Shown: positions 11,069 to 43,549 of the stretch, piece by piece
Position numbering within the stretch: the stretch's first letter is position 1
Layout of the letters: each line of letters opens with the position of its first letter
Source of the DNA: Natronomonas marina
GTDB taxonomy: Archaea; Halobacteriota; Halobacteria; Halobacteriales; Haloarculaceae
Direction of reading: 5' to 3'
Assembly: GCF_024298905.1 (NCBI RefSeq)
Contig: NZ_CP101154.1
Span: 372,001 to 436,000 of the forward strand
DNA length: 64,000 nucleotides
Made by a program: the position numbers and the translations under genes
The notes under the pieces: model-generated
Seen by the model: only the letters and a program-made list of their open reading frames with translations
What the model was told of the DNA's origin: nothing
Database searches by the model: none

Positions 11069-11515
11069 GTGGCCAGCGTCTCGGCGTCGACGCTCATCAT
11101 CTTCATCGCCGCCGTCGGACTCGCGGCCGCCGTCTCCGGGACGATGATCGACAGCGTCGGCACGATCAGCGACTCCGTGAGCGAACGCGGCGAGGTCGTC
11201 AGCGACCAGATCGACACGGACGTCGAGATAATCAGCGACGCCGGCAGCGACGCCGTCTACGACGACGGCACCGTCACCGTCCTCGTCAAGAACGTCGGGT
11301 CGGGGACGCTCCCGAGTCGCCCCGACGCGCTCGATGTCCTCGTCGACGGCCAGTACGTCGCCACCGCCGACCGGTCGATCACCGTCCTGGGCGGCGACGC
11401 CTGGGACGAGGGCAGCGTCGCCAGACTCGTCCTCGATTGGTCGCTCGGTGCGGGCACCCACCGCGTGTCGGTACACATCAACGGCGAGACGGAGACCTTC
11501 GAGTTCCACGTATGA
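11069..11515 (+). CDS. arlG: Archaellum stator protein ArlG
   Basis: A 148-residue protein with an N-terminal membrane helix (STLIIFIAAVGLAAAVSGTM) and a beta-sandwich ectodomain like that of ArlF (GTVTVLVKNVGSGTLPSRPD). The GTG start at 11069 is fixed by a perfect GGAGGTGA Shine-Dalgarno six bases before it, one base after the arlF stop. ArlG filaments capped by ArlF are thought to form the stator. The stop overlaps the arlH start (ATGA), showing translational coupling. Confidence 0.9.
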   Translation: MASVSASTLIIFIAAVGLAAAVSGTMIDSVGTISDSVSERGEVVSDQIDTDVEIISDAGSDAVYDDGTVTVLVKNVGSGTLPSRPDALDVLVDGQYVATADRSITVLGGDAWDEGSVARLVLDWSLGAGTHRVSVHINGETETFEFHV

Positions 11516-12261
11516 GCACGACAACGCACTACTCGCTCGGACTCGGCGAACGGGACCGCGTCGACCACGCCTTCGGCGGCGGACTCCCCCGCGGCTCCAT
11601 CACCCTGATCGAGGGTCCCGACGGCGCGGGCAAGAGCGTCCTCACCCAGCGGATGGCCTACGGCATGGCGACCGAGGGCACCCACGTCAGCGTCGTCTCC
11701 CCGGAGCTGTCGGCCCGCGAGTACATCGACCAGATGCACTCGCTGTCCTACGACGTGGTCCAGCACCTCCTCGAGGACCGACTCGCGTACTTCCACGTCG
11801 ACGTCGACACCCACACCCGGTCGGCGGGCGGCATGGCCGGCACGCGCCCGCTCGTCTCGAAGTTCACCGAGCCGAGCGTCATCTGGCACGGCGACGTCGT
11901 AATCGTCGACGGCTTCGGCGCCCTCCTCCGCAACGACCCCGAGTTCGACGCGGTCGCCGAGACCGCCGACGAGGACCACTTCGTCCAGAGCGTCGTCCGC
12001 TTTCTCGACCGGATGACCGCCGCCGACCGTGCCGTCGTCCTCACGGTCAACCCGGCGTTGCTCGCCGACCGCGCGGTCCAGCCCCTCCGGGACGCCGCCG
12101 ACGTGTACCTCTCCATCGAACGGTCGACCGTCGGCCAGGACATCAGGCGCAAGGCGCTCGTCAACCGGTTCGTCGGGATGGCGAACCAGGTCGACGACAC
12201 CATCGGGTTCGACGTCCAGCACGGCCGCGGCATCGTGATCGTGAGCCGGACGGTGGCCTGA
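11512..12261 (+). CDS. arlH: Archaellum motor regulator ArlH (RecA/KaiC-like ATPase fold)
   Basis: A 249-residue RecA-fold protein that binds ATP and docks on the hexameric motor ArlI. The Walker A is GPDGAGKS (about residues 35-42) and the Walker B is VVIVDGFGALL. The N-terminus YSLGLGERDRVDHAFGGGLP is the KaiC-like entry, and the C-terminus ends in the strand GRGIVIVSRTVA. ArlH autophosphorylation is thought to regulate assembly. The ATG overlaps the arlG stop and arlI starts one base after this stop, so stoichiometry is probably set by coupling. Confidence 0.92.
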   Translation: MSTTTHYSLGLGERDRVDHAFGGGLPRGSITLIEGPDGAGKSVLTQRMAYGMATEGTHVSVVSPELSAREYIDQMHSLSYDVVQHLLEDRLAYFHVDVDTHTRSAGGMAGTRPLVSKFTEPSVIWHGDVVIVDGFGALLRNDPEFDAVAETADEDHFVQSVVRFLDRMTAADRAVVLTVNPALLADRAVQPLRDAADVYLSIERSTVGQDIRRKALVNRFVGMANQVDDTIGFDVQHGRGIVIVSRTVA

Positions 12262-12262
12262 G

Positions 12263-13954
12263 ATGACCGAACTCGGCACCCGGCGCGTGACCGACGAGTT
12301 GCAGGCGGTCCTCGACGAACACGACCACGTCGCCGACCACGTCGAGAGCGTCCGCGCCGACACCGGCGAGTACCCGCTCTACACGGAGGAACTCGGCCGC
12401 GACCACGAGTCCAAGCGGCCGCACGTCCTCTACCCCGTCGACCCGCCGATATTCGTCCACGTCTACGGCGACGTCGGCGAGGACACGATGTACACGGGCC
12501 TGGAGCCGTCGCTCGACGCGTCGGAACGCGACCTGTACGAACGGCTCCGTCAACGCGTGCTGGACCGCAGCGTCACCCGGCCGGCGCCGTCCGACGACGA
12601 CGAGTTCCAGGAGTACCTCGACGAACTCGTCCGGGAGGTCCTCGACGTCGACGGCTCCGCCTCCGGACTCTCCGGTACCCTCCGGCGACGACTGCTGGGG
12701 TCGGAGTTCAGCGTGACCGAGGACACCTACGAACGGCTCCGGTACCAGCTCCTCCGGGACATCGCCGGTCTCGGTCCCATCGAGGCCGTGATGGCCGACA
12801 CCCACAACGAGGACATCCACGTCATCGGGCCCCACGAGTGCTACGTCGACCACGAGGTCTACGGAATGCTGGAGACGAACGTCGACTTCGGCTCCATCGA
12901 GGAGTTCGAAAACTGGATTCGGAACATGGGCGAGCGGATGAACCACCCGGTGAGCGACTCCGATCCCATCGTCGACTCGACGCTGCCGAACGGCTCCCGG
13001 ATCAACATCATCTACTCCGACGACGTCAGCATCAAGGGCCCCTCGCTCACGATCCGGCAGGGCGAGGAGGTGCCGCTGTCGATCCTCCAGATCACCAAGT
13101 GGGGGACGCTCAGCCCCGAACTGGCGGCGTACCTCTGGCTCTGCATGGAGAACGAACAGACCGTCTTCGTCGTCGGCGAGACCGCCTCCGGCAAGACGAC
13201 GACGCTGAACGCCATGTTCTCGTTCATCCCCCGGGACGTGAAGATCTACACCGCCGAGGACACCGCCGAAGTGATGCCGCCCCACGACAACTGGCAGCAG
13301 CTGTTGACCCGGGAGGGTCAGGGCGACAGCGCCTCCGACGTCGACATGTTCGACCTCGTGGCGGCCGCGCTCCGCTCGCGGCCCGGCTACATCTGCGTCG
13401 GTGAGGTCCGCGGCGCCGAGGCCCAGATGGCGTTCCAGGCCGCCCAGACCGGCCACCCGATACTCATCACGTTCCACGCGAGCGACATCGTCTCGATGAT
13501 CCAGCGGTTCACCTCGAACCCGATCAACATCCCCGAGACGTTCATGGACAACGCCGACGTCGCGCTGTTCCAGAACCGCGTCAAGCAGGGCGACGACATC
13601 CTCCGCCGCGTCACGAGCGTTCAGGAGATCGAGGGCTACTCCGAACACGAGGGCGGCGTCATCACCCGCGAGGCCTTCGAGTGGGACCCCCGAAGCGACG
13701 ACGTCGTGTTCAAGGGGCAGAACAACTCCTACGTGCTGGAAGAACAGATCGCCACGCTGCTCGGCTACCGGGACACCCGCGAGATCTACGACGAACTCGA
13801 CCGCCGCGCCGAGATCGTGCGCCGCCTCATCGAGGCCGACGTGCTCGGGTACCACGAGGTCAACCGGGCCATCGAGACGTTCCAGCGCGACGGCGTCGAG
13901 GGGCTGCCGATCGACATCGGCGGTCTCGCCACCACGACCGTCCCGGGGGCCTGA
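12263..13954 (+). CDS. arlI: Archaellum motor ATPase ArlI
   Basis: Secretion-type ATPase that powers both filament assembly and rotation. At 563 residues it has the normal length for haloarchaea. The N-terminal domain contains the three-helix region followed by ATVGLGPIEAV-type sequence (here DIAGLGPIEAVMADTHNEDI). The catalytic core has Walker A VVGETASGKTTTL (about residue 304), a Walker B region RSRPGYICVGEVRGAEA (about 376) and the His-box QTGHPILITFHASD. The protein ends in a Gly-rich tail. It works as a hexamer under the membrane with ArlJ and ArlH. Confidence 0.95.
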   Translation: MTELGTRRVTDELQAVLDEHDHVADHVESVRADTGEYPLYTEELGRDHESKRPHVLYPVDPPIFVHVYGDVGEDTMYTGLEPSLDASERDLYERLRQRVLDRSVTRPAPSDDDEFQEYLDELVREVLDVDGSASGLSGTLRRRLLGSEFSVTEDTYERLRYQLLRDIAGLGPIEAVMADTHNEDIHVIGPHECYVDHEVYGMLETNVDFGSIEEFENWIRNMGERMNHPVSDSDPIVDSTLPNGSRINIIYSDDVSIKGPSLTIRQGEEVPLSILQITKWGTLSPELAAYLWLCMENEQTVFVVGETASGKTTTLNAMFSFIPRDVKIYTAEDTAEVMPPHDNWQQLLTREGQGDSASDVDMFDLVAAALRSRPGYICVGEVRGAEAQMAFQAAQTGHPILITFHASDIVSMIQRFTSNPINIPETFMDNADVALFQNRVKQGDDILRRVTSVQEIEGYSEHEGGVITREAFEWDPRSDDVVFKGQNNSYVLEEQIATLLGYRDTREIYDELDRRAEIVRRLIEADVLGYHEVNRAIETFQRDGVEGLPIDIGGLATTTVPGA

Positions 13955-13960
13955 GGCGCC

Positions 13961-15685
13961 GTGAGCACCGCCGACGCCGACGAGGGGGCGTTCGAACTCG
14001 ACGCCCGGGAGCTGCTGCTGTCGGTCGCCGACTCCTACCGGTACATGGAGATGTCCGCCCGCCGGTACGCGCTGGTGGTGCTGTTGCCCGCGACGCTTTT
14101 CGCCCTCGGCACCGTCGTCGTCGCCGTCGCGGCGCCGGTCGGCCTGACGGTCCGACTGCCGCTGGTCGGACTGGGACTGCTGGCGGCCGCGGTCGCGGTG
14201 TTCTACCCGAAGGTCGTCCAGGACCGCCGGAGCCGGGAGATACGCGAGCGGTTCCACCTGTTTCTCACGCACATCACGGTTCTGTCGATGACGAACATCG
14301 ACCGCGTCGAGATATTCCGGACGCTCGCGGAGGTCGACGAGTACGGGGCGCTGGCCACCGAGATGGGTCACATCGTCGCCCTGGTCGACACCTGGAACCA
14401 GTCGCTCGACGACGCCTGCCGGTTGCGGTCGAAACGTGCCGACTCCGAACTCCTGTCGGACTTCCTCGAACGGCTCGCCTACGCCGTCGGCGCCGGCCAG
14501 TCGCTGAGCGACTTCCTGGTGGACGAACAGGACACCATCCTCCAGCAGTTCGTCATCCGGTACGAGTCCGACCTGGCGAAACTGGACGTCCTCAAGGAAC
14601 TGTACCTCTCGCTGATGCTCTCGACGACGTTCATCCTCGTGTTCTCGACGGTCCTGCCGCTCCTCCTGGGTATCTCGCCGGTGCTGCTGGTCGGCGGCGT
14701 CGTCGTCATGTTCGGGATCGTCCAGGGCGGGTTCCTCTTCGTCGTCCACACCATCTCGCCGTGGGACCCGGTGTGGTTCCACGCCGACGAACTCTCGACG
14801 CCGGCCGAGAACGTCCGGACCGCCCTCTGGGTCGGCGTCGGACTGACGCTTTCGGCGGCGCTCGGCGTCCTCGCCGTCGCCGTCGGCCTCCTGCCCGTCC
14901 CGCGGGACCTCGTTCCGACGCCGATCTACATGAGTATCGTCGTCACCCCGCTTTTGATTCCCGGCGTCGTGATGCGGCGGGAGGAAAACCGGGTCAAGGA
15001 CCGCGACAAGGGATTCCCGTCGTTCATTCGCGCGCTCGGCAGCGTCGAGGCCGTCAAACAGACCTCGACAGTCAACGTCCTGGCGACGCTCCGCAACAAG
15101 GACTTCGGCGCGCTCACCCGGAACGTCGAGGGTCTCTATCGCCGCCTCAACCTCCGGATCGACACGACACGGTCCTGGCGGCTGTTCGCCGCCGAGACCG
15201 GCTCCTACCTCATCCAGAAGTTCGGCGACATGTACGTCGTCGGCCGACGGATGGGCGGCGATTCGCAGGTCCTCGGTCAGGTCATCAGCACCAACTTCTC
15301 GGAGGTCCTCCGGGTCCGGGAACAGCGTGCCCAGGCGACCTCGACGTTCGTCGGCGTCATGTACGGCATCACGGCCGCCTCGATATTCTCCGCGTTCATC
15401 GGTCTTCAGATCGCCGAACAGATGCTGGCGATTGCGAAGGGACTCGACAGCAACAGCGAGATCACGTCGCTGCTGTTCAACCCACAGGTGTACGACGTGG
15501 CCAGCATCGAGTTCCTCCTGTTCGGGGTGGTGCTTTTGAACGCCCTGCTGTCGTCGCTCATCATCCGGCTGATCGACCGTGGCCACACGGTCAACGCCCT
15601 CGTCCACTTCGTGATGCTGATCTGGACCGGGTCGGTCGTGGCCGTCGTCACCCAGTTCGTCGCCGGCCAGCTCATCACCGTCTGA
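13961..15685 (+). CDS. arlJ: Archaellum membrane platform protein ArlJ
   Basis: A 574-residue polytopic protein of the T2SSF/TadC family that forms the membrane platform on which ArlI turns. Hydrophobic helices are visible near residues 35-85, 205-255, 270-345 and 460 to the end, separated by two large charged cytoplasmic domains (for example RDRRSREIRERFHLFLTHIT and REENRVKDRDKGFPSFIRAL) containing the conserved charged loops that contact the ATPase. The GTG start lies 6 bp after arlI. A perfect palindrome follows the stop (15698-15720), so arlJ probably ends the operon. Confidence 0.93.
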   Translation: MSTADADEGAFELDARELLLSVADSYRYMEMSARRYALVVLLPATLFALGTVVVAVAAPVGLTVRLPLVGLGLLAAAVAVFYPKVVQDRRSREIRERFHLFLTHITVLSMTNIDRVEIFRTLAEVDEYGALATEMGHIVALVDTWNQSLDDACRLRSKRADSELLSDFLERLAYAVGAGQSLSDFLVDEQDTILQQFVIRYESDLAKLDVLKELYLSLMLSTTFILVFSTVLPLLLGISPVLLVGGVVVMFGIVQGGFLFVVHTISPWDPVWFHADELSTPAENVRTALWVGVGLTLSAALGVLAVAVGLLPVPRDLVPTPIYMSIVVTPLLIPGVVMRREENRVKDRDKGFPSFIRALGSVEAVKQTSTVNVLATLRNKDFGALTRNVEGLYRRLNLRIDTTRSWRLFAAETGSYLIQKFGDMYVVGRRMGGDSQVLGQVISTNFSEVLRVREQRAQATSTFVGVMYGITAASIFSAFIGLQIAEQMLAIAKGLDSNSEITSLLFNPQVYDVASIEFLLFGVVLLNALLSSLIIRLIDRGHTVNALVHFVMLIWTGSVVAVVTQFVAGQLITV

Positions 15686-16721: not shown

Positions 16722-16838
16722 CCGACGATTTATATACGGAGACGGAGCCAGACGGCGCGTGACCTGAGGTCTGCCGGCGAGCGGTCGTGGCTGGAGCGCG
16801 GAGCGCCGCCGCCGGCATCGTCACGCTCCGCCTGCTCG
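16722..16838 (+). ncRNA. Candidate small RNA, copy A of a two-copy structured element
   Basis: It starts with a strong TATA element TTTATATAC (16729-16737). The following block 16748-16817 matches the minus strand at 43435-43549 at 58 of 70 positions by hand count, and both copies end CGCCTGCTCG. Within the block an 8-bp stem TGCCGGCG/CGCCGGCA can form; in copy B the pairing is shifted to GCCGGCGG/CCGCCGGC, keeping 8 pairs. No open reading frame is shared and no plus-strand gene follows, since sufS lies opposite. This suggests an independent transcript of roughly 80-100 nt. No known RNA family is recognised. Confidence 0.5.
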
Positions 16839-16880
16839 ATTTCCCGCCCCACGAGAACCGTCGCGGCCACTGTGGGGGAG

Positions 16881-43392: not shown

Positions 43393-43434
43393 GGCCGACA
43401 GTGGACGGCCGCGGCCCTGTCCGTTTCGGTGTGA

Positions 43435-43549
43435 CGAGCAGGCGGGACTCGGGTGCCGGCGGCGGCGTCCCGCGCTCCGGCCTCGACCGACCGCCGGCGA
43501 CCGTCAGGTCACGGGCGGTCTGGACGCCCCCTTGTATATAAACCGTCGG
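43435..43549 (-). ncRNA. Candidate small RNA or thrC leader, copy B of the structured element
   Basis: Minus-strand copy of the 16722-16838 element: TATA TTTATATAC at 43534-43542, the same conserved block, an 8-bp stem GCCGGCGG/CCGCCGGC, and the common end CGCCTGCTCG. If transcription starts about 25 bp after the TATA, the RNA would run toward thrC, whose start is about 120 nt further. It may therefore be a leader, but copy A has no gene downstream, which favours a separate small RNA. No known riboswitch or RNA family is recognised. Confidence 0.5.

Follow-up and report, generated by a model that had tools for sequence, protein, structure and literature searches.

Two short intergenic elements, here called copies A and B, lie on opposite strands of a 64,000-nt stretch of Natronomonas marina DNA (contig NZ_CP101154.1, positions 372,001 to 436,000), referred to below as the window. 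An initial annotation, made from the letters alone, described a two-copy structured element with its own TATA box and proposed a small-RNA family, copy B being perhaps the leader of thrC. This raises the question of whether such elements are independent RNA genes, cis-acting leaders of their neighbours or small mobile sequences. The comparison of homologs presented here suggests that copies A and B are members of a Halobacteria-specific and apparently undescribed family of small RNA genes.

Copies A and B belong to a multi-copy family

Both copies exist as they had been described, from TATA to TCG(A/T), A at 16729-16839 on the plus strand and B at 43542-43434 on the minus strand (Table 1). The TTTATATAC box, the CGCCTGCTCG ending and the 8-bp stems, TGCCGGCG/CGCCGGCA in A and GCCGGCGG/CCGCCGGC in B, were all verified. 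A search with copy A against its own genome recovered B (E 4e-21; 79-80% identity across about 117-134 bp) and, at E 3e-11, a third copy of 75% identity. A 146-aa gene lies 8 nt upstream of copy A, and a convergent sufS-like gene ends 41 nt downstream. Copy B is indeed just 5′ of thrC, with a gap of 41 nt and not the 43 nt first reported. On the strand of copy A and shortly before it, window positions 11512-15685 contain genes that resemble those of archaellum FlaH/FlaI/FlaJ (recognised by eye).

The element is repeated, as proposed, but well beyond two copies. The window's genome contains 19 according to covariance model R1 (E <= 0.05), and each of 20 Natronomonas genomes contains 13-33 at the same threshold; all 20 were also matched by BLASTN over 60 relatives. 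Model R1 detects at least one copy in 135 of 146 genomes and in all 22 genera of the taxonomic family of Natronomonas, and model R2 in 237 of 392 Halobacteriales genomes (62 of 95 genera). Matches of model R2 are confined to the order, none being found outside Halobacteriales in a phylum sample of 148 genomes. Copy number varies widely, from 57 in Halomarina halobia, 26 in Halorarius halobius and 23 in Halobaculum gomorrense to 11 in Halobacterium sp. KA-4 and 2 in Haloferax prahovense. Haloquadratum walsbyi J07HQW1, Natrinema pallidum and Natrialba swarupiae gave no copies with the covariance model, which was trained on copies bearing the mini-ORF described below and which degenerate copies may escape. 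The family is present in each of 15 Haloferax genomes, in nearly all of them as a single strong copy of predicted length 78 nt. At locus L192 a copy lies between a HAD-hydrolase gene and a zinc-ribbon gene, and the H. volcanii copy is expected in the same slot.

No Rfam 15 family matches the window, either at the gathering threshold or at E <= 10, and three loci from the same genome gave chance matches only (E 0.87 or more). Searches of the open-access literature yielded no description of the family; an earlier mention in subscription journals or supplements, which lie outside that scope, is possible.

Table 1. Positions of the features of copies A and B in the window
Feature	Position	Strand	Basis
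Copy A, BRE (CGACGA) and TATA box TTTATATAC	16723..16737	+	family logo
Copy A, "-16" promoter box CGGAGCCA, one deviation from CGNGRCCA	16743..16750	+	model columns 15-22, IC up to 2.0; box also before protein genes
Copy A, predicted TSS and leaderless mini-ORF GTG-ACC-TGA	16759..16767	+	start/stop codon counts; TATA-to-start distance of leaderless genes
Copy A, S1 5′ strand (TGCCGGCG, bulged A, GCGG)	16772..16784	+	covariation
Copy A, loop L1 (TCGTGGCTGGAGC); family form cGAGGCGGGAGy	16785..16797	+	family logo conservation
Copy A, S2 5′ strand GCGGAGCG	16798..16805	+	covariation
Copy A, S1 3′ strand (CCGC + CGCCGGCA)	16806..16817	+	covariation
Copy A, variable loop L3	16818..16823	+	family's lowest information
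Copy A, S2 3′ strand CGCTCCGC, crosses S1	16824..16831	+	covariation
Copy A, invariant 3′ tail CTGCTCGA (family CTGTTCGC)	16832..16839	+	conservation stops at tail end
Copy B, whole element, TATA (43542-43534) to 3′ tail CTGCTCGT (43441-43434)	43434..43542	-	sequence match to A
Copy B, predicted TSS and leaderless mini-ORF GTG-ACC-TGA	43504..43512	-	codon counts; TATA-to-start distance
Copy B, S1 5′ strand (GCCGGCGG, bulged T, CGGT)	43486..43498	-	covariation
Copy B, S2 5′ strand GCGGGAC	43467..43473	-	covariation
Copy B, S1 3′ strand (GCCG + CCGCCGGC)	43455..43466	-	covariation
Copy B, S2 3′ strand GTCCCGC	43442..43448	-	covariation

A promoter followed by a start-X-stop mini-ORF

In the family logo TTTATA is preceded by a BRE, with C at -6 in 92% and G at -5 in 71% of copies. 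A conserved additional box, CGNGRCCA, is found at about -16 (columns 15-22) and is followed by Y-R at columns 30-31. At column 31 begins [A/G]TG-NNN-stop, with the start present in 162 and the stop in 162 of the 164 copies and, among 187 non-redundant copies, in 183 and 184 respectively (about 98%). The stops used in the latter set are TGA (164), TAA (13) and TAG (7), with TGG once. G is allowed in the third position after A and not after G (Fisher p 4e-7, an optimistic value as the sequences are related), which is the signature of a stop codon. Exceptions are limited to a few copies, with ACG, ATC or GTC as start and TGG, CGG or TGC where the stop is expected.

The distance from TATA to this start is 30 nt in 119, 31 nt in 38 and 29 nt in 3 of the 164 copies. 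Where a TATA box was found for the 655 ordinary genes of these loci, its first T is located 29-31 nt upstream of the ATG. Transcription of the element is thus predicted to start at the [A/G]UG itself, the position of a leaderless start codon. In Haloferax volcanii mRNAs are mostly leaderless and GUG starts occur, but a leaderless GUG initiates weakly in Haloferax (PMC4983044), and efficient initiation on the element is therefore doubtful.

The RNA is predicted to form an H-type pseudoknot

A scan of all column pairs in 16 aligned homologs, in which no structure was assumed, ranked a helix S2 (GCGYGGRRC...GYYCCGC) first and S1, the 8-bp stem noted initially, second. Since S1 and S2 cross, the fold is an H-type pseudoknot: the original stem is real and incomplete. 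Three helices taken together had 88.5% of cells paired and 12 of 19 pairs changed on both sides, a result equalled by none of 500 shuffles. In 64 sequences S2 was 97% paired with 99 double-change cells (0 of 500 shuffles), and its pairing was lost when the partner was slid by one column. APC-corrected mutual information over 164 sequences placed the column pairs 74-97, 75-96, 70-101, 55-79, 73-98, 56-78, 51-82 and 49-84 at the top (z up to 29). These correspond to S2 and to S1, the latter extending up to 12 bp with one bulge. The alignments behind these counts were fitted to S2 only, which had first been found on the structure-free alignment, and S1 is therefore confirmed independently. The small-RNA family proposed initially is thus supported by hundreds of homologs and by covariation of both helices, in line with the many homologs and compensatory changes that had been predicted.

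The resulting architecture includes S1 of 8-12 bp, L1 of about 12 nt, S2 of 7-8 bp, L2 of about 0 and L3 of 6-60 nt. MFE folding of A and B gave nothing unusual (z -0.4 and -0.1), so that the evidence for structure is covariation and not folding energy; pseudoknots cannot be represented by MFE folding. Three additional pairings were considered and rejected. An inner hairpin in the S1 loop (columns 56-59/64-67) is just 83% paired and absent from the top covarying pairs, the extension of S1 being found instead. A closing helix between GSGRCCAG and the 3′ tail shows no covariation and, GSGRCCAG being upstream of the TSS, would fall outside the transcript. L1 and the 3′ tail likewise show no covariation that would indicate pairing between them.

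GSGRCCAG (logo columns 16-23) is a 7/8 match to the reverse complement of the tail CTGTTCGC (columns 102-109), again with no covariation; the two regions may be sites for one DNA-binding protein.

The 3′ end

CTGYTCGC is the most conserved stretch of the family, and conservation drops past C(C/T)A. Eight Haloferax genomes show 94-99% identity over the 78 nt from GTG to TCGC and diverge in the following 19 nt. The RNA probably extends from GTG to TCGC and is about 78-80 nt long. An intrinsic terminator was rejected, TTTT occurring within 60 nt downstream of 7 of 164 copies, to be compared with 3.4% of controls. As no T-tract follows the element, the 3′ end is probably generated by processing or by an unusual terminator.

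The promoter box also precedes protein-coding genes

The strict pattern TTYAWRN8CGNGRCCA, with the reversed pattern as control, has 9-51 matches per genome in six RNA-bearing genomes (control, 0). RNA-lacking genomes have 1-12 (control, 0-2), so that some single matches there are expected by chance, and some are intragenic with no start codon at the expected place. Many strict matches are RNA copies, and most others are followed after 30-33 nt by an ATG or GTG which opens a real gene. According to Pfam these leaderless genes include T2SSE (pilus ATPase), Pilin_N, DUF7283, DUF7310, DUF7382, DUF3006 and DUF6735, together with Cas_Cas4, NucS_N, TctA, ParA/CbiA, PLDc_2, HerA/DUF87, HNH_repeat and one IS605 OrfB; several types recur in 3-4 genomes. 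NCBIfam concurs (TadA-like ATPase, pilin, Cas4, MinD), with matches below cut-off except for the pilin.

DUF7283 is preceded by the box in two other families. In genera without the RNA the box is found before DUF7310/7382, Cas4-like, HerA, NucS-like, DUF7283 and pilin genes, which suggests that the signal is ancient and common to the order, and that the RNA came under it later or has often been lost. DUF7283 and the RNA tend to occur together: 207 genomes have both, 30 the RNA only, 68 DUF7283 only and 87 neither (odds ratio 8.8, kinship being ignored). The box-bearing pilus ATPase, pilin, nuclease and HerA genes are thus candidates for an order-wide regulon of DNA uptake or exchange, a role read from domain names only. 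The regulon proposal rests on the family and not on the window, where both copies deviate from the strict box (CGGAGCCA in A and GGCGTCCA in B).

Box-bearing regulon genes can be paired, HerA-like with DUF7382 and DUF7310-like with DUF7382. In Halomarina (locus L434, 1537, both strands) a HerA-like and a DUF7382 gene are arranged back to back on opposite strands with a box on each. In an RNA-lacking genus such gene pairs are about 1.2 kb apart on opposite strands, each gene with its box (L461/L473 and L463/L475).

A possible role at the ribosome

The reading that we favour, and hold to be rather probable, is that each copy is an independent gene of a pseudoknot small-RNA family, co-regulated with a pilus/DNA-processing gene set and acting on the ribosome. 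Its structural components, namely the promoter with CGNGRCCA, the H-type pseudoknot, the CTGYTCGC tail, the [A/G]TG-NNN-stop and the intergenic slots, are established at the level of sequence comparison. We infer with moderate confidence that a common regulator co-expresses the RNA and the box-bearing pilus and DNA-processing genes and, less firmly, that the RNA acts through the ribosome.

Across the family the stems drift freely, in contrast to a constant 5′ message, L1 and 3′ tail. This suggests that shape and constant loops matter, as in an RNA that meets a protein or the ribosome. Retention of the leaderless start codon argues that a ribosome is engaged, and retention of a stop two codons on that it must not enter the knot. 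The start codon lies 14-15 nt ahead of the pseudoknot (S1); the edge of an initiating 70S ribosome is expected about 14-15 nt past the first base of the start codon. The free small RNA would engage ribosomes that initiate on leaderless messages: a 70S ribosome would initiate at its 5′ start codon, elongation would be blocked because codon 3 is a stop, and the 70S would be held with the pseudoknot at the mRNA entry. Many such RNAs might jointly tune or pause (leaderless) translation during a pilus or DNA-uptake type of programme. In its fullest and still tentative form, the RNA, encoded by dozens of chromosomal genes, would be the order-wide arm of a DNA-uptake/pilus regulon, a mimic of leaderless mRNA which holds the 70S in a start-stop cycle and so reprograms leaderless translation during expression of the DNA-exchange machinery.

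The same drifting stems, constant loops and constant 3′ tail are typical of protein-binding RNAs, and could be expected of a conventional trans-acting sRNA which binds a protein or pairs with mRNA. The start-X-stop would then merely shield the pseudoknot from leaderless ribosomes, the ribosome not being the target, and the early stop would protect the fold. Loss of the start codon would, however, suffice to avoid translation, yet about 98% of copies retain [A/G]UG, and we regard this explanation as rather unlikely.

Genomic placement and dispersal

Whether the copies behave as independent genes can also be judged from their surroundings. None of 164 loci overlaps a gene predicted by a codon-usage gene finder. 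The copies lie between convergent genes (63), in tandem on the same strand (53) or on the opposite strand (32), or between divergent genes (16), and for 95 of the 164 the downstream gene is convergent. The start of a divergent neighbour is never closer than 28 nt, and that of a co-directional one is mostly at 34 nt or more, as expected if each has its own leaderless promoter. Most loci are conserved and many are syntenic within a genus, the 41-nt spacing to thrC being fixed in several Natronomonas. A few (for example L206, L267 and L276) are apparently common to different families.

In Halomarina recent copies are up to 96% identical, and only the unit from BRE to TCGC is common to them, the flanks being unrelated; the whole gene can therefore disperse. 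Such dispersal as a discrete unit, copy numbers of 0 to 57 and the stop codons of 34 of the 95 convergent neighbours, located within 1 nt of the last base of the element, would all suit a small non-autonomous mobile element (SINE- or MITE-like) consisting of promoter and RNA, whose RNA structure serves its own spread. We nevertheless consider this improbable. Terminal inverted repeats and target duplications were not seen in 10 recently duplicated Halomarina copies, the imperfect GSGRCCAG...CTGTTCGC similarity being all that resembles a terminal repeat. All Halomarina copies listed (57 found) are on the chromosome contig (2.95 of 4.3 Mb), though about 30% of the genome is elsewhere. Phage and plasmid collections and viral contigs were unmatched in searches of low sensitivity, loci are conserved within genera and Natronomonas has had no recent burst.

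About a third of the convergent neighbours end at TCGC + TA, which suggests that arrival of the element or compaction fixed the ends of these genes.

It is highly improbable that the element is a cis-acting leader (riboswitch, attenuator or uORF) of the downstream gene, as first suggested for copy B: the fixed spacing to thrC and the Thr codon (ACC) in the mini-ORF there would fit, but 95 of 164 copies face a convergent gene, thrC is one neighbour among many, co-directional genes usually start at least 34 nt off with space for their own leaderless promoter (as does thrC at 41 nt), and Thr is the commonest codon 2 throughout the family (77 of 164), with no enrichment at thrC.

In Natronomonas gomsonensis and N. 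sp. CBA1123 (L034, L076) the region upstream of thrC is without the element, but CTGTTC and CGTTCGCACCC persist there as short stretches that may be the remains of a decayed copy.

Relation to known systems

The own promoter, intergenic position and conserved RNA structure predicted here are those of a haloarchaeal small RNA gene. Type III toxin-antitoxin ToxI RNA shares the H-type pseudoknot architecture. ToxI is a tandem repeat beside toxN, whereas the present copies are single dispersed genes with their own promoters. The two-codon minigenes of lambda bar (AUG AUA UAA), which can occupy ribosomes, provide the same message of start, one codon and stop. They are bacterial, leadered, without a pseudoknot and dependent on a specific rare codon, in contrast to a leaderless, multi-copy gene family with a variable codon 2.

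Haloferax volcanii rancRNA_s194, IG1.7 and Hts4 are ribosome-associated intergenic RNAs of 72-97 nt; s194, 97 nt long and reported as >94% conserved, has its own promoter, binds 50S and inhibits translation in vitro (PMC6104027). These are likewise haloarchaeal intergenic RNAs of similar size, with a promoter of its own in the case of s194. By its description there, s194 is nevertheless a poor fit, with 97 nt as against conservation ending at 78 nt in Haloferax here. In the DNA-damage Ups/Ced regulon of Sulfolobales one promoter motif co-ordinates a pilus ATPase, pilins and a HerA-like DNA translocase (PMC5817253, PMC11868833). The gene content under a common motif is similar; the lineage and the motif differ, and the regulon has no known RNA members.

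Among the structured small-RNA gene families of haloarchaea, the present one seems to rank with the most numerous. Sequence divergence too great for BLAST, and a fold that is unremarkable unless the pseudoknot is considered, are the probable reasons why it was overlooked. The family connects a non-coding RNA with minimal leaderless ORFs in organisms dominated by leaderless translation, and its box would tie pilus ATPase and pilins, nucleases and HerA into one order-wide regulon, a candidate route of haloarchaeal DNA uptake or exchange. The low copy number in Haloferax makes a direct test by deletion possible.

Several other identities were rejected. The family does not resemble archaeal C/D or H/ACA guide RNAs: RUGAUGA and a fixed ACA are absent, CUGA occurs only as mini-ORF stop context, and the stems drift with compensation and include no guide-like block. 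With a convergent gene following 95 of 164 copies, it does not form a riboswitch or cis-leader class. The archaeal S15/eL15/L4 leader candidates (PMC7247131) are gene leaders, of a different kind, and MITEHsal2 of Halobacterium, at about 411 bp, is a different element (PMC10264941). A TnpB/IS605 omega-RNA was also rejected: no tnpB was recognised by eye among the flanking genes, the copies have their own intergenic slots, and one tnpB has the promoter box alone in common. This IS605 OrfB/TnpB-type gene (L428, genome G018) carries TATA and box at leaderless distance.
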